A stretch of 64,000 nucleotides of DNA from Arthrobacter sp. CDRTa11 (GTDB lineage: Bacteria; Actinomycetota; Actinomycetes; Actinomycetales; Micrococcaceae). A program made the translations under genes and the position numbers. The notes under the pieces are model-generated. The model did no database searches. It worked only from the letters and a program-made list of their open reading frames with translations, and had not been told where the DNA came from. The stretch spans positions 620,001-684,000 of the forward strand of contig NZ_CP044532.1 of the NCBI RefSeq assembly GCF_026427775.1. Direction: 5' to 3'. Shown one piece after another: positions 4,854-31,740 of the stretch. How positions within the stretch are numbered: position 1 is the stretch's first letter; the number at the start of each line of letters is the position of its first letter.

Positions 4854-5609
4854 ATGACCGAGCTGCAGGGCCTGGTGGCCATCGTGACCGGAGGGTCCTC
4901 CGGCATCGGCGATGCCGTCGTCCGGCGGTTTCAGGCGCTCGGCGCCGAAGTGGCGGCCCTGGACCGCCACCCTGGCCGGTCCGCCCCCGGCGCTTTCCAT
5001 GCCGTTTGTGACGTGGGCGACGACGCCTCCGTCCATGCCGCCGTCGGCTCCGTCGTCGCGGAGTTCGGCCGGCTGGACATTGTGGTGAACAACGCTGGCG
5101 TGGGCGCCCAGGGCACCGTGGAGGACAACACTGATGACGAGTGGCACAGGGTGTGGGACGTTAATGTCGTTGGGATGGCCCGGGTCAGCAGGGCGGCGCT
5201 TCCGGCGCTGCGGCAGTCAGCCTCCGCTGCCATCGTGAACATCTGTTCGGTGGCGGCTACGGTGGGCCTTCCCCAACGGGCACTGTACTCAGCCACGAAG
5301 GGCGCCGTGCTGTCCCTGACCCGGGCCATGGCAGCGGATCACCTCCGCGAAGGGATCCGGGTGAACTGCGTCAATCCCGGCACCGCGGATACACCCTGGA
5401 TCTCCCGGCTCCTGGACTCTGCCCCGGATCCCGCTGTGGAGCGCGCCGCCCTTGAAGCCCGCCAGCCGCACGGCCGGTTGGTGTCGGCGGATGAGGTGGC
5501 CGGGGCTGTTGCGTACCTCGCCAGCCCGCAGTCCGGCTCCACCACCGGTACATCAATAACGGTCGACGGCGGCATGCAGGCCCTGCGGTTGCGCGCGCTT
5601 CCGCATTAA
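4854..5609 (+). CDS. SDR-family NAD(P)-dependent oxidoreductase
   Basis: A 251-residue classical short-chain dehydrogenase. The cofactor motif TGGSSGIG is at residues 12-19, NNAG at 79-82, the structural Asn at 104, and the catalytic Ser132, Tyr145 and Lys149 (YSATK) are all present. The C terminus has the usual GTSITVDGG. The ATG at 4854 follows GAGAGGGCAGG. It diverges from the sugar importer and shares the operator-bearing interval with it, so it probably oxidises the imported sugar or a derived acid, as SDR enzymes do in non-phosphorylating deoxy-sugar pathways. That role is inferred from context; the sequence alone does not give the substrate. Confidence 0.9.
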   Translation: MTELQGLVAIVTGGSSGIGDAVVRRFQALGAEVAALDRHPGRSAPGAFHAVCDVGDDASVHAAVGSVVAEFGRLDIVVNNAGVGAQGTVEDNTDDEWHRVWDVNVVGMARVSRAALPALRQSASAAIVNICSVAATVGLPQRALYSATKGAVLSLTRAMAADHLREGIRVNCVNPGTADTPWISRLLDSAPDPAVERAALEARQPHGRLVSADEVAGAVAYLASPQSGSTTGTSITVDGGMQALRLRALPH

Positions 5610-5621
5610 TGAAGTTGCCTG

Positions 5622-5691
5622 ACACAAAAAATCCGAGGCTTGTCCGCAGAACCGCGCCGTGAAGGCGGGGAACCGCGGACAAGCCCCGGAT
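5622..5691. terminator. Terminator between convergent SDR and usp genes
   Basis: GGCTTGTCCGC (5637-5647) pairs with GCGGACAAGCC (5675-5685), with further pairing outside (ATCC/GGAT). On the minus strand the hairpin is followed by TTTTTT (5630-5625), so it best fits a rho-independent terminator for the Usp gene. It can also stop transcripts of the SDR gene. Confidence 0.75.
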
Positions 5692-5709
5692 TAGTCGGAG
5701 CGGGCGGAC

Positions 5710-6102
5710 CTAACTGGCCTTGACCGCCAATACCGGGCAGTCCGCCTCCAGCAAAATGCGCTGCGACGTGCTGCCCATGATCAGCTTGCCCACCGGCGTG
5801 CGGCGGCGCAGGCCGATCACAATCAGATCGGCATTGTGCTCCTCCGCGGCATCGAGGACCTCCGCTGCCGCGTCATGCCCACGGACCGGCTGCTTGATCA
5901 CGTGGTCTATTCCCTGGGTTGCCAGTCGGTCCTCGATGCTCTGGATCTCCGGCTCCTGGGCGTATCTGTTGTCCACCAGGGCATCGCCCTTGGACGAATT
6001 GATGACCAGCAGGGTGGTGCTGTTTTTCCGGGCCTCCAGAATGGCCTGGGTCAGCGCCGCTTCGCCCTCTGGTGTGGGGACGTATCCCACCACGATCGTC
6101 AT
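5710..6102 (-). CDS. Universal stress protein (UspA family)
   Basis: A 130-residue single-domain Usp protein. It opens MTIVVGYVPTPEGEAAL and closes with the ATP-binding stretch VIGLRRRTPVGKLIMGSTSQ, which follows the G-2X-G-9X-G(S/T) pattern with Arg-rich replacements in the first part (GLRRRTPVG). The family binds ATP and is induced by starvation or stress. An AAGGAG ribosome-binding site lies seven bases before the ATG. It is a single-gene unit, bounded by a terminator on the 3' side and by a heptamer repeat (6114-6155) just upstream of the ribosome-binding site, which could affect its promoter or leader. Confidence 0.9.
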   Translation of the reverse strand: MTIVVGYVPTPEGEAALTQAILEARKNSTTLLVINSSKGDALVDNRYAQEPEIQSIEDRLATQGIDHVIKQPVRGHDAAAEVLDAAEEHNADLIVIGLRRRTPVGKLIMGSTSQRILLEADCPVLAVKAS

Positions 6103-23376: not shown

Positions 23377-24702
23377 ATGAGCCGTGCCTGGCTGCGGTGG
23401 ATGCCAGCCGCAGCAGTACCTGCTGTGATTGCCGCTGGTGTGCTGGCGGGGTCCATTCCGGCGCGGGCCGGTGACCCCCTCCCCGAGAAGACTCCCGCGC
23501 AGGTCCTTGCCCTGGTGGCCGGGCACACCACCAAGACTTTCTCCGGAACAGTGGAACAGACCTCTGACCTGGGCCTGCCTGAACTCCCGGCGCCAGGACC
23601 CACCTCTGGACCGGCCTCCGCGGGAGGGGCAGCCTCAGCCCTGGAGCTTTTGACCGGCCAGCACACAGCCCGAATTTTTATGGACGGACCGGCTAAAGTG
23701 CGGATCCAACTGGTGGACCGGCTGGCTGAACGGGACCTGATCCGGCGGGACAGCGACGTTTGGTTCTACTCCTCCAAGGACAACACCGCAGCCCACCTCA
23801 CGCTGCCCGCGAAGGCCAGTGACCTGCCGCTGCCGCAGCCTGAAGCCCCGGTGCCGCCCACTCCGGACGAGCTGGCCAGCAGGCTCCTGGCCGCAGCCGA
23901 TCCTTCCACTGAAGTGACGGTGGGACCGGACGTTGAGGTTGCCGGCCGCGCTGCCTACAACCTGGTGCTTGAGCCGCGGACCGAAGGAACCCTGGTGGGC
24001 AGTGCCGCCATCGCGGTGGACAGCGAAACGGGCATGCCGCTGAGGGTTTCGGTAACGGCGCGGGGCCAGGCAGAGCCGGCCTTCCAGAGCGGTTTCGCGA
24101 GCCTGTCGTTGGAGCCGCCGGACGATTCGCGGTTCAGCTTTGTTCCACCGCCGGGGGCCACGGTCAAGGAGCTCCAGCCGCCGGCCCCGGGCATGCACTG
24201 GCCGTCCACGCCAGCCATCCCGGGATCTCCGGGCACGACCACCCCCGGCCAGGTTGAGCCGGATCAGGTTGAGCCCGGCCAGGTTGAGCCGCAGCCGGCC
24301 CCGCCCCTGCCCGGCGACGTCCCGGCCGTCCCGCCGAGCCCAGCGGACAAACTGCCGCCGGACCAGCCTCCCGCGGACCAGCTTCCGCCGGAGCTTCAGG
24401 ACGGGCAGGTCCCGCCTGACAAGCCCAGCTGGGACAGAAAGGCCATGCCCCGGCCGTCCGTGACCGGCAGCGGCTGGGAGACAGTGATTGGTATCCCGGC
24501 CGCAATGGGCGGGCAGGGGTCAGTCCTGAGTGAGTCACTGCTGAATGATCCGCTCCTGGCCCAGGCCGCCGTCGTCGTTCCCGGGGGACGGTTGCTGTCC
24601 ACCGCCCTGGTTAACGTCCTGTTCACCGACGACGGACGCGTCTTCGTGGGGATGGTTCCGTCCGAGAGGCTGCAAGCCGCCGCCGGCGCAGTGGCCCCGT
24701 GA
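23377..24702 (+). CDS. Exported LolA/MucB-like protein with a Pro-rich region
   Basis: A 441-residue secreted or membrane-anchored protein. A signal peptide (MPAAAVPAVIAAGVLAGSIPARA) is followed by a LolA/RseB-like beta-rich domain, about residues 38-255: HTTKTFSGTVEQTSDLGLPELP, RIFMDGPAKVRIQLVDRLAERDLIRRDSDVWFYSSKDNTAAHLTLP, and YNLVLEPRTEGTLVGSAAIAVDSETGMPLRV. A long Pro/Gln/Glu-rich linker (about 265-370) leads to a conserved C-terminal end. Its stop overlaps the ABC ATPase start (GTGA), so the three genes 23377-26652 form one unit. LolA-like folds bind lipid or acyl groups, so a role in handling a lipidated cargo with the ABC transporter is possible. Confidence 0.8.
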   Translation: MSRAWLRWMPAAAVPAVIAAGVLAGSIPARAGDPLPEKTPAQVLALVAGHTTKTFSGTVEQTSDLGLPELPAPGPTSGPASAGGAASALELLTGQHTARIFMDGPAKVRIQLVDRLAERDLIRRDSDVWFYSSKDNTAAHLTLPAKASDLPLPQPEAPVPPTPDELASRLLAAADPSTEVTVGPDVEVAGRAAYNLVLEPRTEGTLVGSAAIAVDSETGMPLRVSVTARGQAEPAFQSGFASLSLEPPDDSRFSFVPPPGATVKELQPPAPGMHWPSTPAIPGSPGTTTPGQVEPDQVEPGQVEPQPAPPLPGDVPAVPPSPADKLPPDQPPADQLPPELQDGQVPPDKPSWDRKAMPRPSVTGSGWETVIGIPAAMGGQGSVLSESLLNDPLLAQAAVVVPGGRLLSTALVNVLFTDDGRVFVGMVPSERLQAAAGAVAP

Positions 24703-25718
24703 CGGGCTCCGGCGCCGCCGCTGTGACGGGCGTTCAGGAGAACGGGACGTCGGGACTGACCATTGAAACTAAGGGCCTGAGTAAGAGGTTCGGCCACCAA
24801 TTGGCCGTTGATTCGGTGGATCTGGCGGTGCCGCACGGCTCGGTGTTTGGGTTCCTGGGGCCCAACGGGTCAGGAAAGACCACCACCATCCGCATGATGC
24901 TGGGCCTTGCGGCGGCCTCGGCCGGTACAGTCAGCGTGCTTGGCCTGGAGATGCCGGGCCGCCTCCACGACGTCCTTCCGCGAGTAGGCGCACTCGTGGA
25001 AGGCCCTGCTTTTTATCCCTTCCTGTCAGGTGCCGCCAATCTTCACAGGCTTGACGCCGCCAGCCGGCATGCTGCGCCGGCCACGCGTAAAGCGAGGGTC
25101 CAGAATGCCTTGGAGCGGGTGGGCCTGGCCCACGCGGCCGGGAAAAGGGTGCACGCCTATTCATTGGGCATGAAGCAGCGGCTGGGCATCGCCAACGCCT
25201 TGCTGTCCCCGCGGGAACTCCTAGTCCTGGACGAGCCCACTAACGGGCTGGATCCACAAGGCACCCGGGAGGTCAGAAGCCTGGTCCGTTCCCTCGCTGC
25301 CGACGGCGCCACCGTGTTCGTGTCCAGCCACCTGCTCGCAGAGGTGGAGCAGATCTGCACCCACGCGGCCATCATGAGCGCAGGGCGGCTGGTGGCCCAG
25401 GGGCCCCTGGCGGAGCTCCGCCAGGCTGGTGAAACACGGATCCGCCTCATAACGCCCGACGCCGGAGCAGCCTCTGATGTCCTGCGCCGGCTGGGAATGG
25501 ATCCTGCTCAGGGGACGCCGGCGCCCGAAGGCGACGTGGTGACCGCCGTGGCCGCCGTTTCCCCAGAAGCCGCGGGGTCAAACGGCACGGCGCCGGAGAA
25601 TGTTGTGGCGCGCCTGGTGGAGGCAGGTGTCAGGGTCCGCGGATTTTCGGTGGAGCGGGAGAGCCTGGAGGACCGGTTCGTGGCCTTGACGGGGGAGGGG
25701 TTCGACGTTGCCCAGTAG
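24699..25718 (+). CDS. ABC exporter ATP-binding protein
   Basis: A 339-residue ATPase of the drug/lantibiotic-exporter (BcrA/CcmA-like) group. Walker A is GFLGPNGSGKTTTIRM, the signature YSLGMKQRLGIANALL, Walker B LLVLDEPTNGLDPQG, and the switch His lies in VFVSSHLLAEVEQIC. The C-terminal 100 residues, with MDPAQGTPAPEGDVVTAVAAVSPEAAGSNG, form the poorly conserved tail seen in this group. The GTG start at 24699 overlaps the preceding stop. It pairs with the permease encoded from 25708 to export an unknown compound. Confidence 0.93.
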   Translation: MTGSGAAAVTGVQENGTSGLTIETKGLSKRFGHQLAVDSVDLAVPHGSVFGFLGPNGSGKTTTIRMMLGLAAASAGTVSVLGLEMPGRLHDVLPRVGALVEGPAFYPFLSGAANLHRLDAASRHAAPATRKARVQNALERVGLAHAAGKRVHAYSLGMKQRLGIANALLSPRELLVLDEPTNGLDPQGTREVRSLVRSLAADGATVFVSSHLLAEVEQICTHAAIMSAGRLVAQGPLAELRQAGETRIRLITPDAGAASDVLRRLGMDPAQGTPAPEGDVVTAVAAVSPEAAGSNGTAPENVVARLVEAGVRVRGFSVERESLEDRFVALTGEGFDVAQ

Positions 25719-25767
25719 CAGGTTGCCCAGTAGCAGATTGTCCAGTGACAGATTGCCTAGTAACAGT
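25708..25767 (+). repeat. Four tandem 15-bp units carrying start codons
   Basis: Units TTGCCCAGTAGCAGG, TTGCCCAGTAGCAGA, TTGTCCAGTGACAGA and TTGCCTAGTAACAGT begin at 25708, 25723, 25738 and 25753. Each starts with an in-frame TTG. The first also contains the stop codon of the upstream ATPase gene (TAG, 25716-25718). Confidence 0.9.
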
Positions 25768-26652
25768 GTGCCCGGGAGCGTACAGGGACGTGAGGCCGGC
25801 GGCCGGCCCGGAGCCGCACGAGGCGGCGCGGCCGCGCCATCAAGCCTGTCGCTGCTGGCGTCCGAACTGAAGGTGCTGTTCCGCCGCCGGAGAACCTGGG
25901 CGATGCTGCTGGCACTGGCCGCGATACCGGTGCTGATCGCCGTCGCCGTCCGGCTTTCTTCCACGGTGCCGCCGGGGCGGGGGCCCGCTTTCCTGGACCG
26001 GATCACCCAGAACGGGCTCTTTGTGGCGGTCACCGCCATGCTGGTTTCGGTTCCCCTGTTCCTGCCCCTCACCATCGGGGTGGTTGCCGGCGACACGATC
26101 GCCGGCGAGGCGAGCCTTGGCACCCTGCGCTATCTCCTGGTGGCTCCTGCCGGGAGGGTGCGGCTGCTCCTGGTGAAGTACGCCGGTGCGCTGGCCTTCT
26201 GCGTCGCCGCGCCCGTTACCGTGGCCCTCGCGGGAACTGCGATTGGGGCCTCGCTGTTTCCTATCGGCCCGGTGACGCTGCTGTCCGGGGACGTGGTCCA
26301 ACCACCGGAAGCGGCACTGCGGCTGGTGCTGATCGCGTGTTATCTCTCGGTGTCCCTTGCCGGTCTCTCGGCAATCGGCCTGTTCCTGTCCACCCTTACC
26401 GTGGTCCCTGTCGGTGCGATGGCGGCCACGGTGGTGGTGTCGGTGGTGTCACAGGTCCTGGACCAGTTGCCGCAGCTCGAGTGGCTGCACCCCTGGCTTT
26501 TCAGCCACTACTGGTTTGGCTTTGGAGATATCCTGCGGGAGCCTGTGCTGTGGGATTCGTTTGCCAGCAATGCCCTGCTGCAAGCCGGGTATGTGGCCGT
26601 GTTTGGCGCGCTGGCCTACGGGAGGTTCGTCACCAAGGATGTGCTCTCCTGA
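25708..26652 (+). CDS. ABC exporter permease (ABC-2 type)
   Basis: A 314-residue membrane protein with six predicted segments, for example TWAMLLALAAIPVLIAVAVRL, FVAVTAMLVSVPLFLPLTIGVVAGDTIAGEASLGTLRYLL and the YLSVSLAGLSAIGLFLSTLTVVPVGAMAATVVV hairpin. Conserved AGEASLGTLRYLLVAP is typical of ABC-2 permeases such as ABC-2_2/NatB-like. The start is a TTG at 25708, seven bases after GGGGAGGGG. The first twenty codons are four near-identical 15-bp repeats, so the protein begins with LPSSR-like repeats, and three more in-frame TTG codons could also start translation. It overlaps the ATPase gene by 11 bases. Confidence 0.88.
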   Translation: MPSSRLPSSRLSSDRLPSNSVPGSVQGREAGGRPGAARGGAAAPSSLSLLASELKVLFRRRRTWAMLLALAAIPVLIAVAVRLSSTVPPGRGPAFLDRITQNGLFVAVTAMLVSVPLFLPLTIGVVAGDTIAGEASLGTLRYLLVAPAGRVRLLLVKYAGALAFCVAAPVTVALAGTAIGASLFPIGPVTLLSGDVVQPPEAALRLVLIACYLSVSLAGLSAIGLFLSTLTVVPVGAMAATVVVSVVSQVLDQLPQLEWLHPWLFSHYWFGFGDILREPVLWDSFASNALLQAGYVAVFGALAYGRFVTKDVLS

Positions 26653-26695: not shown

Positions 26696-28162
26696 CTAGT
26701 AGCGGGCGGCGTAGGGATGAAGCTGCATGCCGGCCATCCGGCTCAGCTGGGTCACGGCGATTCCTTCATTCGGATTCAGGGCCTGCACCACCTGGCCGTT
26801 TCCCAGGTAAATTGCCACGTGATAGAAGTTCGGCGCCGAGCCCCACACCAACAGGTCGCCTCGCTGGGCCTGCGAGATGGGTACATGCACCGGGGCTGAG
26901 GAATACTGCTGCGCCGCCGTGCGGGGCAGGTATTTGCCGGCCGCGGCGAATGCTGTCTGCACCAGGCCGGAGCAGTCAAAGCCATACGGCCCGGTCCCGC
27001 CCCATTGGTAGAAGTAGGGTGCTCCCACCTTGGTCATTGCCACGGAGATGGCGGTCTCATTGGAACCTCCGGGCGAAGGCGAAGGCGAAGGCGCAGGCGC
27101 AACGGGAGCGGGTGCAACGGGAGCAGGAACTAGTGGAGCGGGAGCTGCCGGAACGCCGGGAGCTGGAACTGCAGGAGGCTGTGGAGCGGGAGCGGGAGCG
27201 GGAGCCGGAGCAGCTGGGCCGGGAGCAGCGGGGCCGGGGACCGCAGGCGCGGGAGCTGCCGGTGCCGGCGCGGCAGGTGCGGGAGCAGCCGGCGCCACAG
27301 CCCGTGGACCAGCCGCCCGACCAGCCGCCGCCTCTGCTGCTGCGGCCTGATCCGCTGCTGCGGTCAGTGCGGCAAGCCTGGCCGCGTCCCGCTGCCTGTC
27401 CAGGGCATCAACGCGCGCAGATTCCAAGGCAACCGTGGTGTTCCTCAGCTGTGCCAGCTGATCCACCAGGACTGCCCGCTGTGCCGTAGCCTCCGCTACG
27501 GCCTTCACCTGGGCGGCGTTGGCCTGTTCAGCCTCCTCCTTGCGGACTTCAGCGTTCCTTGCTGCATCTTCTGCCGCCCGGTTGGCATCATCGGCGGCAG
27601 CAGTCAGGGACTTGAAGGTGGTGGCGGCAGTTTCGGCTGACTGGAAGGCGCGGCTCCGGCTGGCCGAGATGGCCTCCAGTGTGGCGGCCTGCTGCAGGAC
27701 GTCGCCGCCCCCCATGAACGTGCTCAGGGCCGGGTTCATGCCGCCGTTGCGGTAAAGATCGCCGGCAAGCTGCCCCACCTCCTTGCGCGTTTTGTCCTGC
27801 TCGTGCTGGGCTGCCTGGGCTCTCGCCGTGGCAGCCACCGCGGCGGACTGCCGGGACTGCTGCTCAACCAAGGCGTCGCCATAGGAGTTATTTGCCTGCA
27901 GTGACAACGCGAAAGTGGCCTGCTGGGCTGTGGCTGCGTCCGACAGGATGCGCTCGATGGCCGCCACCTGATCCGCCGTCGCGCTTTCACTGGCTTTGGC
28001 CGCGGCGATGTCCTCGGGGCTGGGAATCTCCGGGGCGGCCGGAAGCTGGACGGCGGGTGCCTGTGGCAGGGGAGCGGCTTGAGCCGGCAGTGCGAGAGTT
28101 CCCAGAAGCACGACGGCGGCGCACCATACGGCGGCCTTCCGGCCCGGTGCGGTCAAACCCAT
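26696..28162 (-). CDS. NlpC/P60-family peptidoglycan hydrolase
   Basis: A 488-residue secreted cell-wall hydrolase. A signal peptide (AAVWCAAVVLLGTLALPAQA) is followed by an Ala/Gln/Glu-rich coiled-coil region (about residues 45-290), then a low-complexity Pro/Ala linker of about 100 residues, then the C40 peptidase domain. Catalytic Cys lies in FDCSGLVQTAF, catalytic His in FYHVAIYLGNG, with the third polar residue expected near VVQALNPNEG. This layout is like RipA/RpfA-associated endopeptidases, which cut stem peptides during division. The ATG at 28162 has GAGG seven bases before it. It is a single gene, divergent from the DUF692 operon, and no c-di-AMP riboswitch is seen in its leader. Confidence 0.93.
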   Translation of the reverse strand: MGLTAPGRKAAVWCAAVVLLGTLALPAQAAPLPQAPAVQLPAAPEIPSPEDIAAAKASESATADQVAAIERILSDAATAQQATFALSLQANNSYGDALVEQQSRQSAAVAATARAQAAQHEQDKTRKEVGQLAGDLYRNGGMNPALSTFMGGGDVLQQAATLEAISASRSRAFQSAETAATTFKSLTAAADDANRAAEDAARNAEVRKEEAEQANAAQVKAVAEATAQRAVLVDQLAQLRNTTVALESARVDALDRQRDAARLAALTAAADQAAAAEAAAGRAAGPRAVAPAAPAPAAPAPAAPAPAVPGPAAPGPAAPAPAPAPAPQPPAVPAPGVPAAPAPLVPAPVAPAPVAPAPSPSPSPGGSNETAISVAMTKVGAPYFYQWGGTGPYGFDCSGLVQTAFAAAGKYLPRTAAQQYSSAPVHVPISQAQRGDLLVWGSAPNFYHVAIYLGNGQVVQALNPNEGIAVTQLSRMAGMQLHPYAARY

Positions 28163-28439
28163 GTCAAAACCTCGCAGCACAGTAAGGCTGGTGATCGAGG
28201 CTTGTATGCGGCACAAAGATGCCCCGCTGCCCATCGCCCAGCAGTCCGAGGCTACGTGACAGGATGCACAATGGCAACAACTGTCACATCAATAACATTA
28301 ACAACAGGCGGTTGGCGGGCTGGTTATTTGCCTCGGCGTGTCGGCTTCATTTGAGCCGGGCACATGGACAGTCCAACCCATAACGGAACGCCGTTCGGGC
28401 CCGTAACATTGGGGAACGACAACACTGACAGGGGGGCTA
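28163..28439. promoter_or_regulatory. Divergent interval, NlpC/P60 and TIGR04222 genes
   Basis: A 277-bp non-coding interval with an AT-rich patch near 28270-28310 (AACTGTCACATCAATAACAT) that probably holds promoters in both directions. I see no palindrome or riboswitch fold. Confidence 0.4.
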
Positions 28440-29348
28440 GTGGAGCCGACATGGGGCATTGAGGGCGCGGATTTCCTGGGGTGGTATCTGAGCATTGGGC
28501 TGTTGCTGGCCGCCACCATTTTCCTGGTCCGGCTGTTCACCGGCGGTCTGATACCCGTTCGTCCAAAAGTTGACCCCCACACCCTCCTGCCGCTCGATCT
28601 GGCGTACCTGAGCGGCGGCCCGTTCCACGCCGTGGCAATCAGCCATTGGGTATGGACGGATCACAAGGCGGGGCGCCATGGCGAGGAAGCGGAGTTCCTG
28701 CGAGCAAACCGGCTGGACCCTTTGCTGCAGGCAGTTGCCGGTCCCGTGCTGAATTCCACTGCCTCCATCAGGGAGTGCCTGCTGGATCCGGCCGTTTCGT
28801 TCCAGCTCAGGTCCAGGCATCAACAGCTCGCCGGGCGGGGACTGCTGCGCAGCCGCGGAGTCATGGGTTTTCTGCGGATCCTGAAATGGGTTGCCATCGG
28901 GTTCCTGGCGCTGGGTGTTGCCCGGATCGTCGCAGGGATGATCAACGGCAGGGACACCGCGTATCTGGTGGGTGCGGTCATTGCGGGCGTCTTCCTGCTG
29001 TTTGTACTGGCCGTCAAGATCCCCACCATCACTCATCCAGGAATCAAGGCGCTGCGCGAACTGCGGCGCGAGAACCAGGACCTCCGGCCCGGCAGGAAAG
29101 CGGGCTACGACGGCGTTCGTCCCGCCCGGGTGGCACTTGGGGCGGCGCTCTTTGGCACAGCCGGGTTATGGATTGCGGCTCCGGCCTATGCCTCGGCCAT
29201 GGGGATCCCCGCCGCAGGGACAGCCGCCGGCGGTGGAATGTACTACGGCGATTCCGGCTCATCCTCCGCATCCTCCTCATCGTCCGGAAGCTCCTCATGC
29301 AGCAGCGGCAGCAGCGGTGGCTGCGGCGGCGGCGGTTGTGGTGGTTGA
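28440..29348 (+). CDS. TIGR04222-type membrane protein with Ser/Gly/Cys-rich tail
   Basis: A 302-residue membrane protein. One segment near the N terminus (FLGWYLSIGLLLAATIFLVRLF) is followed by a cytoplasmic domain of about 100 residues opening DLAYLSGGPFHAVAISHWV, then two adjacent segments (RILKWVAIGFLALGVARIVAGM and AYLVGAVIAGVFLLFVLAVKI) and a later hydrophobic stretch. The last 30 residues are almost only Ser, Gly and Cys, with Cys287, Cys295 and Cys300. This matches the TIGR04222 family, whose domain precedes low-complexity tails. The GTG start at 28440 follows AGGGGGG. Immediately downstream is a DUF692 enzyme, so the Cys tail is a candidate modification substrate. Confidence 0.85.
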   Translation: MEPTWGIEGADFLGWYLSIGLLLAATIFLVRLFTGGLIPVRPKVDPHTLLPLDLAYLSGGPFHAVAISHWVWTDHKAGRHGEEAEFLRANRLDPLLQAVAGPVLNSTASIRECLLDPAVSFQLRSRHQQLAGRGLLRSRGVMGFLRILKWVAIGFLALGVARIVAGMINGRDTAYLVGAVIAGVFLLFVLAVKIPTITHPGIKALRELRRENQDLRPGRKAGYDGVRPARVALGAALFGTAGLWIAAPAYASAMGIPAAGTAAGGGMYYGDSGSSSASSSSSGSSSCSSGSSGGCGGGGCGG

Positions 29349-30243
29349 GGCAGGACTGCTTCAGCCGGGCCTGGGCATCGGCTGGCGTTCCAGCCTGGCA
29401 GAGTCCATTGGCCGCCTGAACGGCCTGTCTTTCGTTGAGGTTGTGGCCGAGAACCTGCATGATCATGGTTCCGGAATAGACGTGCCTCCTGACCTCCAAC
29501 AGCTGGTCGACGGCGGCAGCACCGCCGTCGCGCATGGAATCTCACTGTCGCTGGGCTCGGCCGCAGAGGTGGACCAGTCCCGCCTGGCGCATTTGCGCCG
29601 GGTGGGGGAGGCCATCCGGGCGCCCCTGGTCAGCGAACACATTGCGTTCGTGCGGGCCGGGAGTCCTGCCCCGCCGGGGGCCCCGCATGCGGACATGCTC
29701 GAGGCCGGCCATCTGCTGCCGGTGCCGCGGAGCCTTGACTCGCTATTGGTGCTGACGGCCAACATCCGGCAGGCTGTGGACGGGCTGGAGGTTCCGCTGG
29801 CACTGGAACCCATCGCGGCGCTGGCCGAGTGGCCGGACAACACCATGACCGAGGGCCAGTTCCTGACCGAGCTGCTGGAACGGACAGACGCTTTGCTGGT
29901 GCTCGACGTCGCGAACGTGTATGCCAATGCAGTGAACCATGGCCGCGACCCGCTTGCGGCGTTGCTTGAGTTTCCGCTTGAGCGCATCGCCTATTGCCAC
30001 ATTGCGGGAGGAAGCGTGATGGACGGTCTCTACCAGGACACCCATCAGGACCCGGTCCCGCGGGAGGTCCTGGAACTCGGCGGCGAACTCCTTCAATCGA
30101 CAGGACCCGTGCCGCTGATGCTCGAACGCGACGGCAAGTTCCCTCCCGAAGCGGTGTTTTTTGCCGAGCTGGACGCCATCGCCGACGCCGCAGGCCTGCC
30201 CCGTGTCACCCCCGGTGCAACGGCCGGGCAGCTTCCGGAATGA
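29338..30243 (+). CDS. DUF692 (MNIO-family) metalloenzyme
   Basis: A 301-residue TIM-barrel protein of the DUF692 family, which includes MbnB, TglH and ChrH, multinuclear iron oxidases that modify Cys residues of peptides. Likely metal ligands are visible in family positions: AHGISLSLGS, VSEHIAFV, LEPIA, VLDVANVYANAVNHG, YCHIAGG, DTHQDPV and LMLERDGKF. The start is uncertain: GTG 29338 and GTG 29341 both lie inside the last codons of the TIGR04222 gene, and no strong ribosome-binding site is present, so translation is probably coupled to that gene. The partner gene downstream overlaps the stop by four bases. Confidence 0.87.
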   Translation: MVVEAGLLQPGLGIGWRSSLAESIGRLNGLSFVEVVAENLHDHGSGIDVPPDLQQLVDGGSTAVAHGISLSLGSAAEVDQSRLAHLRRVGEAIRAPLVSEHIAFVRAGSPAPPGAPHADMLEAGHLLPVPRSLDSLLVLTANIRQAVDGLEVPLALEPIAALAEWPDNTMTEGQFLTELLERTDALLVLDVANVYANAVNHGRDPLAALLEFPLERIAYCHIAGGSVMDGLYQDTHQDPVPREVLELGGELLQSTGPVPLMLERDGKFPPEAVFFAELDAIADAAGLPRVTPGATAGQLPE

Positions 30244-30809
30244 CTGCAGGAACAGGCAGTCCCTCGGATCCGGACGGCGTGGACTCCGGAAGCTGGGACG
30301 GTACTGGCGCGCAGGTGCTCGCCGCTGCGCGTTTACGCCTCGCCGCCAGCCAGCGGGAGCTCGTTGAGGCGCTCGTGGCGAAGGGGCCGGTGCCTGAAGG
30401 CTTCGACCCCCTGCAGGTGGCGGCCGTCCGGCGTGGCCTTGAACGCAAGAGGCTGGGCGGCATTGGCTACCACTTTCCAGCCCTGGCGGGCGCCATCCGG
30501 GCAAACCCCGGCTTGATGGAGTTGTTTGGCAGCTGGCACAGTGCCAATCATCCGGGCGAAGGTCCGGAACCTGGCTATTACGCCGACGGGGTGAGGCTGA
30601 TCGGCTTCCTGGAGGGCATCGGCAGGCTGCCCGGCGACGCCACCCGGGAAGTGCTGATGTTGCGGATCGGGACAAGTGCGGCGCCCGACGGTCACCGGAT
30701 CCCGGCGCGGTGGGCGGGGCTGCGCCGTGTTGGCGTTGATGGCAAGACGTGGTGGGTGGCCGGCAGCCATCGCCGCTGGGTGTGGCTGCGAAGCCCACGC
30801 TGCCCGTAA
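30240..30809 (+). CDS. SCO6045-like partner protein of DUF692
   Basis: A 189-residue soluble protein whose ATG overlaps the DUF692 stop (ATGA). The N-terminal part, after a disordered stretch, is helical: LAAARLRLAASQRELVEALVAKGPVPEGFDPLQVAAVRRGLERKR. The C-terminal part is basic and Trp-rich (RIPARWAGLRRVGVDGKTWWVAGSHRRWVWLRSPRCP). The pattern recalls actinobacterial SCO6045-like proteins that sit next to DUF692 genes. Other DUF692 enzymes need a partner (MbnC, TglI) to recognise the substrate, so this could be the recognition subunit. That role is inferred from gene order only. Confidence 0.75.
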   Translation: MTAGTGSPSDPDGVDSGSWDGTGAQVLAAARLRLAASQRELVEALVAKGPVPEGFDPLQVAAVRRGLERKRLGGIGYHFPALAGAIRANPGLMELFGSWHSANHPGEGPEPGYYADGVRLIGFLEGIGRLPGDATREVLMLRIGTSAAPDGHRIPARWAGLRRVGVDGKTWWVAGSHRRWVWLRSPRCP

Positions 30810-30819
30810 AGCGTTGAGG

Positions 30820-31740
30820 TTAGGCGTGCTGATGCGCCTCGTGTTCAAGGTGGCTGGCGGGCTCAAGCTGGAACGTGCAGTGCTCGGTGTCGAAGTGGGA
30901 GCCAAGGCAGGTGATGAGCTTGTCCAGCACCTGGTCGGCGCCGCGGGCAGTGAGCACTCCATCCTCAAGAACCACGTGGGCGGAGAACACCGGTACCCCG
31001 GAGGTGATGGTCCAGATGTGGATGTCGTGAACGTCCACCACGCCCTCAACGGACAGGATGTGCTCGCGGATCATCTGAACCTCCACACCCTTGGGGCTCG
31101 CTTCAAGCAGGACATCCACCACATCGCGGAGCAGGCTCCAGGCGCGCGGCAGGATCATCAGGGCAATGAGCACGGAGGCAATGGTGTCAGCGGCGTGGTA
31201 ACCCGTGGTCAGGATCACCACTGCGGCCACAATGACTGCCAAGGACCCCAGCAGGTCGCCCAGTACTTCCAGGTAGGCTCCCCGGACGTTCAGGCTGTCT
31301 TGGTGTGCACCCCGCAGGATCAGCAGGGACACCAGATTGGCCAGCGCTCCCAGGATGGCAGCCCCCAGCATGATGTCCGTTTGTACCTCGGGAGCAGATC
31401 CGAAACGCCGGATCGCCTCGGTGAAGATGATCACGGAGATGACGATCAGGATCAGGGCGTTGGCCAGCGCCGCCAGGACCTCGGCCCGCTGGTAACCGTA
31501 CGTTCTCAAGTCGCTGGCCGGACGGCCCGCAATCCACGACGCGAGAAGCGCAATGGTGACGCCCGCAGCGTCGGACAGCATGTGGCCTGCGTCAGCCAGG
31601 AGGGCCAGGGACCCGGAGAGCGCCGCCCCTGCCACCTGGACCAGGACCACAGCCAGTGTGATGGCCAAAACGGCTACAAGGCGCTTGCGGTGCCGGCCCG
31701 TGGCCGTGATCCCATGCGTATGGCTGTGGTCGTGTCCCAT
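30820..31740 (-). CDS. CzcD-type cation diffusion facilitator
   Basis: A 306-residue Zn/Co/Cd efflux protein of the CDF family. It starts with a His-rich tail (MGHDHSHTHG) and has six membrane segments. The second has the metal site LADAGHMLSDAAG (HxxxD). The fifth reads YLEVLGDLLGS, with Glu where CzcD and ZitB have His, so the transport site would be HxxxD/ExxxD. The cytoplasmic C-terminal domain (VEGVVDVHDIHIWTITSG) is the usual ferredoxin-like fold. It exchanges metal for protons across the membrane. It is convergent with the DUF692 operon (11 bases apart). Confidence 0.93.
   Translation of the reverse strand: MGHDHSHTHGITATGRHRKRLVAVLAITLAVVLVQVAGAALSGSLALLADAGHMLSDAAGVTIALLASWIAGRPASDLRTYGYQRAEVLAALANALILIVISVIIFTEAIRRFGSAPEVQTDIMLGAAILGALANLVSLLILRGAHQDSLNVRGAYLEVLGDLLGSLAVIVAAVVILTTGYHAADTIASVLIALMILPRAWSLLRDVVDVLLEASPKGVEVQMIREHILSVEGVVDVHDIHIWTITSGVPVFSAHVVLEDGVLTARGADQVLDKLITCLGSHFDTEHCTFQLEPASHLEHEAHQHA

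Follow-up and report, generated by a model that had tools for sequence, protein, structure and literature searches.

A compact operon in Arthrobacter sp. CDRTa11 appears to encode a self-contained three-gene system that modifies the Cys tail of a membrane protein; we favour this explanation with a probability of roughly 0.68. The operon occupies positions 28440-30809 of a 64,000-nucleotide window (the whole stretch analysed, positions 620,001-684,000 of contig NZ_CP044532.1) and consists of three overlapping frames on the forward (+) strand. The first (28440-29348, GTG start) encodes a 302-residue membrane protein, the proposed substrate, which matches NCBIfam TIGR04222.1 at 80.8 bits against a cut-off of 43. 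The second (29341-30243) encodes a 300-residue enzyme of the MNIO (formerly DUF692) family with 239.9 bits to Pfam PF05114 (cut-off 25); its start codon is uncertain and the GTG chosen gives an 8-base overlap with the TIGR04222 gene. The third (30240-30809) encodes a 189-residue protein, the proposed MNIO partner, and its ATG overlaps the MNIO stop as ATGA. No small precursor gene was seen adjoining the operon. This organisation, including the Ser/Gly/Cys tail of the first protein, the small partner gene and the lack of an adjacent precursor, agrees with a preliminary description made from the DNA alone.

The TIGR04222 protein has four hydrophobic stretches in a hydropathy calculation (residues 10-40, 140-170, 171-202 and 231-249; 28467-29186, + strand). 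Lys plus Arg counts are 0 in the N-terminus, 11 in loop 1, 1 in loop 2, 9 in loop 3 and 0 in the tail. By the positive-inside rule both the N-terminus and the tail are predicted to lie outside, a topology that comes from simple hydropathy and a charge count rather than a trained predictor. Directly before the first membrane helix is a short conserved motif, TWGIxGxxFL (28449-28478), a possible recognition site; the N-terminus of this 302-residue protein is the conserved TWGI motif followed by a hydrophobic stretch. The AlphaFold2 model has a mean pLDDT of 82.6. The Ser/Gly/Cys tail (residues 262-302; 29223-29345, + strand), the proposed modification site, falls below 50 at residues 262-291 and 293-302 and is modelled as disordered. 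The protein ends ...SSSCSSGSSGGCGGGGCGG, placing Cys 16, 8 and 3 residues from the C-terminus: Cys287 (29298-29300, read from the codon), Cys295 (29322-29324) and Cys300 (29337-29339), the last within a terminal GCGG. Comparison of the fold with the PDB gave no informative match, and the profile matches to winged-helix regulators are weak (E 0.28 and above) and serve as a lead only.

The last of these Cys positions recurs across relatives. A contig scan that used only the window protein detected none of them; they were recovered by a scan based on an alignment (A1), using its N-terminal motif; the best 80 of 130 confirmed loci form the named set. They derive chiefly from Micromonospora, Actinoplanes-type genera, Nocardia, Pseudonocardia and Frankia, are interrelated, and are biased toward the window protein. 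As the motif is N-terminal, the scan did not select for tails. Among 86 complete TIGR04222 proteins from these loci, 75 end in GCGG and 76 have Cys at -3, where random draws gave a mean of 7.5 and a maximum of 18 in 2,000 rounds (relatedness not corrected). The number of Cys in the last 45 residues ranges from 0 to 7. In 71 of the 80 loci an MNIO gene follows on the same strand, and 79 of 82 complete proteins from these 71 carry at least two Cys in the last 45 residues; every one of the 71 has at least one TIGR04222 protein with two or more. The nine loci lacking a downstream MNIO comprise seven contig ends and two others, L085 and L088, both without an MNIO in the locus DNA examined; the L088 protein has one tail Cys. 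A survey of gene order and tail Cys count, suggested in the preliminary description, supports it with more regularity than chance would give: the order is kept as above, and three tail Cys, no more and no fewer, occur in the window protein as in each of its 18 nearest homologues (48-95% identical), always with the final pair at -8 and -3. In eight loci (L046, L049, L064, L076, L082, L090, L091 and L093) a single MNIO gene is preceded by tandem TIGR04222 genes whose tails differ, which suggests one enzyme serving several tails.

Co-occurrence across genomes points the same way. TIGR04222 over cut-off occurs in 11 of 296 genomes of the phylum and MNIO in 15; the 10 genomes with both all carry the two genes within about 2.1 kb on one contig. 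MNIO genes standing mostly without TIGR04222 had been named as the outcome that would speak against the proposal, and ten of the 15 MNIO genomes have the pair. None of the 38 genomes with sub-threshold TIGR04222 matches only has MNIO (0/38). In the window's order, MNIO is present in 6 of 248 genomes, four of which (the window's own, G398, G489 and G588) have a TIGR04222-like gene adjacent when searched with our own profile.

The sub-threshold genomes also provided a control. Loci were available for 19 of the 38 and, with two further loci, gave 21 relatives; L002, L003 and L031, which have no Gly/Ser tail, were left out. All 18 remaining proteins have a Gly/Ser tail with zero Cys in the last 45 residues, and MNIO is absent from all 18 genomes. 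Three of the 18 have one Cys 56 residues from the end, ahead of the tail. The Gly/Ser tail occurs without MNIO; tail Cys do not, in the sample examined.

The motifs of the enzyme are intact. Nine residues (H65, H100, E156, D189, N192, H220, D233, H235 and E262), which we take to be metal ligands, are identical in all 85 rows of an MNIO alignment, in which the window occupies three rows and L097 is left out since its MNIO is split. The intact metal-ligand motifs and a score above the curated cut-off of PF05114 (MbnB_TglH_ChrH) bear out the earlier assignment. The nearest named model is BufB, at 164.7 bits against a cut-off of 310, which is not reached. By hydropathy, neither the MNIO nor the third protein has a stretch resembling a membrane helix or signal peptide (highest 19-residue values 1.05 and 0.77, compared with 2.71 for the membrane protein). 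In the Micromonospora locus L097 (6689-7714) the MNIO is split across two frames, through either an assembly error or a broken gene.

The third gene is very probably that of the enzyme's partner. Its domain accompanies MNIO at 84 of 85 loci, the sole exception being a contig end, and it is fused to MNIO in a Streptomyces-like group and in one Frankia; at L119-L125 (Streptomyces-like) the two share one reading frame. Searching for homologues with the window's third protein as sole query recovered just that protein, and the family was for this reason built from the loci. The third protein matches no family of Pfam or NCBIfam at E≤1. Its gene follows MNIO and carries no DUF2063 signature, which makes it PME-type 2-like; one of 45 family members matches DUF2063 weakly (E 0.024). 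When its structural model is compared with known structures, the MNIO partners MbnC and TglI rank first with weak Z, and a profile search of the PDB gave no sequence match to partners of the MbnC/TglI type. No full RRE-like domain is apparent in the model.

We propose a complex of the MNIO with the third protein in the cytosol, as their near-constant linkage, their fusion and the modelled fold would suggest. The complex would act on the C-terminal Ser/Gly tail of newly made TIGR04222 protein. That the tail is the MNIO substrate is probable from the comparative data, since gene order, co-occurrence, the Cys-less control and the partner fusions all favour it. Some or all of the three tail Cys would be oxidised, most likely to groups of the thiooxazole or oxazolone/thioamide type; a thiooxazole-type product, by analogy with characterised enzymes, is a tentative assignment. 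To our knowledge, MNIO chemistry has been worked out mostly on small peptides. As both the MNIO and the third protein lack any hydrophobic stretch of the kind found in membrane helices or signal peptides, modification would have to precede export of the tail by the last helix. The product may bind copper or a different soft metal as a chelator that is anchored in the membrane and faces the extracytoplasmic side; this is the weakest step, and a metal-buffering function is possible rather than probable. A more speculative extension, which we regard as rather unlikely, is that the recognition module is part of the substrate itself. The TWGI N-terminus, the cytosolic domain of the TIGR04222 protein or both would dock the MNIO-partner complex, and the oxidised Cys tail would stay on the membrane protein. 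The result would be a surface metal site encoded by three horizontally mobile genes and lacking a leader peptide, a protease and a dedicated exporter.

The operon is, on its sequence, a further member of an already proposed TIGR04222-MNIO type. The part of the study by Antoine et al. (2025, Microb Genom, PMC12452194) drawn on here collects more than 3,500 TIGR04222 proteins, notes their MNIO neighbours, predicts their Cys-bearing C-terminal regions to be extracytoplasmic and proposes subsets of them as MNIO substrates. It reports a PME-type 2 partner for 10% or more of the TIGR04222 clusters, with many clusters appearing to lack a partner gene. The window thus resembles those clusters in its families, its Cys/Ser/Gly tail predicted outside, the substrate role and the partner type. 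It differs in that the third gene is kept at nearly all Actinomycetota loci (84/85) and is fused in some; the two partner figures come from different sets, ours being far smaller and biased to relatives of the window protein. The substrate idea in the preliminary description accordingly gains comparative support, but the claim to a different kind of system does not stand, as the portion of that paper considered here already proposes it. In published accounts, to the extent covered, we found no biochemical test of TIGR04222 tail modification; one other paper names TIGR04222 a single time, when describing a cluster.

Other MNIO systems offer partial parallels. Bufferins (BufA/BufB/BufC) likewise pair an MNIO with a partner, their targets being Cys in a protein destined for the outside, and BufB is the nearest model; unlike them, the window has no DUF2282 match (Pfam, E≤1), no DUF2063 in its third protein and an MNIO far under the BufB cut-off. 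MbnABC (methanobactin) and TglHI share the MNIO with a small partner, and the third-protein model ranks MbnC and TglI first, but the proposed substrate here is a 302-residue membrane protein. The MerC-bufferin fusions described in part of the same study (PMC12452194) are similar in that a membrane protein ends in an MNIO substrate domain which bears Cys and is predicted to lie outside; neither the MerC nor the bufferin domain is matched in the window.

Several observations weigh against the favoured explanation. Two of the six MNIO genomes in the window's order (G441 and G549; loci L129 and L130) have MNIO and partner, but no TIGR04222 gene or Cys/Gly/Ser-rich frame end was found within the 11 kb examined at either. 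Among seven Streptomyces-like genomes, the adjacent TIGR04222 protein has no tail in four and no such protein was found in two; in the remaining one it has eight Cys. Three of these genomes also carry a distant second TIGR04222 copy, with a single Cys close to a Gly-rich end. Conversely, Phytohabitans L085 has a four-Cys tail and no MNIO in the locus DNA examined. The portion of PMC12452194 drawn on puts MNIO as absent from a third of TIGR04222 genomes and C-proximal Cys as absent from more than a quarter of the proteins. For the partner, Foldseek gave a weak best E of 1.2 and profile comparison with DUF2063 a weak probability of 1.5%. No metal-related family recurs among the flanking genes, for the 25 of 67 families listed. 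At the MNIO loci that depart from the pattern, the enzyme would have a different target or a substrate acting in trans. Loci L129 and L130, the four tail-less Streptomyces-like neighbours and L085 also speak for a rival reading, in which the MNIO and partner modify some other peptide or another part of the protein, with TIGR04222 as a scaffold or delivery factor and the tail binding metal or forming disulfides unmodified. We consider this unlikely: it leaves unexplained the two or more tail Cys in a TIGR04222 protein at each of the 71 named MNIO loci, and relatives from MNIO-less genomes retain the Gly/Ser tail but not its Cys. Moreover, in 12 regions searched (a set separate from the named loci), the Cys/Gly/Ser-rich frame ends were TIGR04222 tails (L123, L126 and L128), one frame directly before MNIO (L127) and one about 2.6 kb away (L124). 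At L127 (about 5400-5770), just ahead of the MNIO, the TIGR04222 domain is in one frame and a Cys-rich tail in another, reflecting an assembly error or a broken gene.

Two further alternatives concern the tail itself. The last helix could be an internal signal peptide, with signal peptidase cutting at an A-x-A-like site to secrete the modified tail. The window protein reads ...IAAPAYASA directly ahead of its tail, and 80 of 121 proteins have a residue compatible with signal peptidase in the matching motif. However, E, D, K, Q or M stands there in 14 of the 121 and the motif is missing in 27; release by signal peptidase was therefore rejected as a general feature, and we judge it distinctly improbable. 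That the tail Cys are mutational noise in a GC-rich Ser/Gly repeat and the operon a chance neighbourhood draws on the facts that a single base change separates AGC, GGC and TGC and that the tail is of low complexity and variable length, with the range of Cys counts seen over the 86 proteins. The preferred -3 position, the Cys-less control tails and the recurrent gene order are poorly compatible with this reading, which is barely credible. The modified Cys tail remains the explanation we favour.

Two unrelated genes flank the operon, which together with about 130 bp of upstream DNA behaves as a self-contained insertion. A Pfam scan identifies these immediate neighbours as encoding an NlpC/P60 and a cation-efflux protein; the two genes lie no more than 216 bp apart, with no operon between them, in 9 of 12 same-genus genomes; of the other three, one has 3.3 kb of other DNA between the genes and two have no clear pair. 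BLAST against seven of the nine operon-free sites delimited an extra segment at 28307-30817 (unstranded), with the left edge at 28306 in six of seven (28343 in the seventh) and the right edge at 30818-30822 in all seven. Within the genus, TIGR04222 over cut-off is confined to the window's own genome (1/61), so gain here is likelier than repeated loss. A metal function read from the cation-efflux gene (30820-31740) was rejected, as that gene is not part of the insertion; it adjoins NlpC/P60 in the nine genomes without the operon and so says nothing about the operon. At L149 (G010, 343000-347500) other DNA lies between the same edges, with frames that by eye resemble ABC transporter and HAD-type proteins. 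The NlpC/P60-cation-efflux site may be an insertion hotspot. Beyond NlpC/P60, two window frames at 24699-26652 resemble, by eye, an ABC transporter ATPase and permease.

A TetR-family regulator gene lies directly upstream of the membrane protein gene in 14 named loci (for example L035, 5309-5881), found on scanning 71 flanking proteins of 119 frames picked. These are presumably the frames 76-97% identical to one in L033, all from Micromonosporaceae; none was seen upstream in the window. Searches for other features gave little. PADLOC matched none of the three operon proteins, Rfam at gathering score gave no match in 28000-31000, a promoter scan found none, and terminator-like sites numbered 2 against 1.8 in shuffles. 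PHROGs, searched with the first and third proteins, yielded a single unnamed hit, a weak one (E 0.0044) in the low-complexity tail, and tblastn of the membrane protein against plasmids gave no match.

The near-constant partner, its natural fusions and the compact gene set amount to an exact list for co-expression, a matter that the part of PMC12452194 drawn on leaves open for many clusters. If the favoured explanation is true, cytosolic modification of a tail followed by its export would widen the range of MNIO substrates to ordinary membrane proteins.
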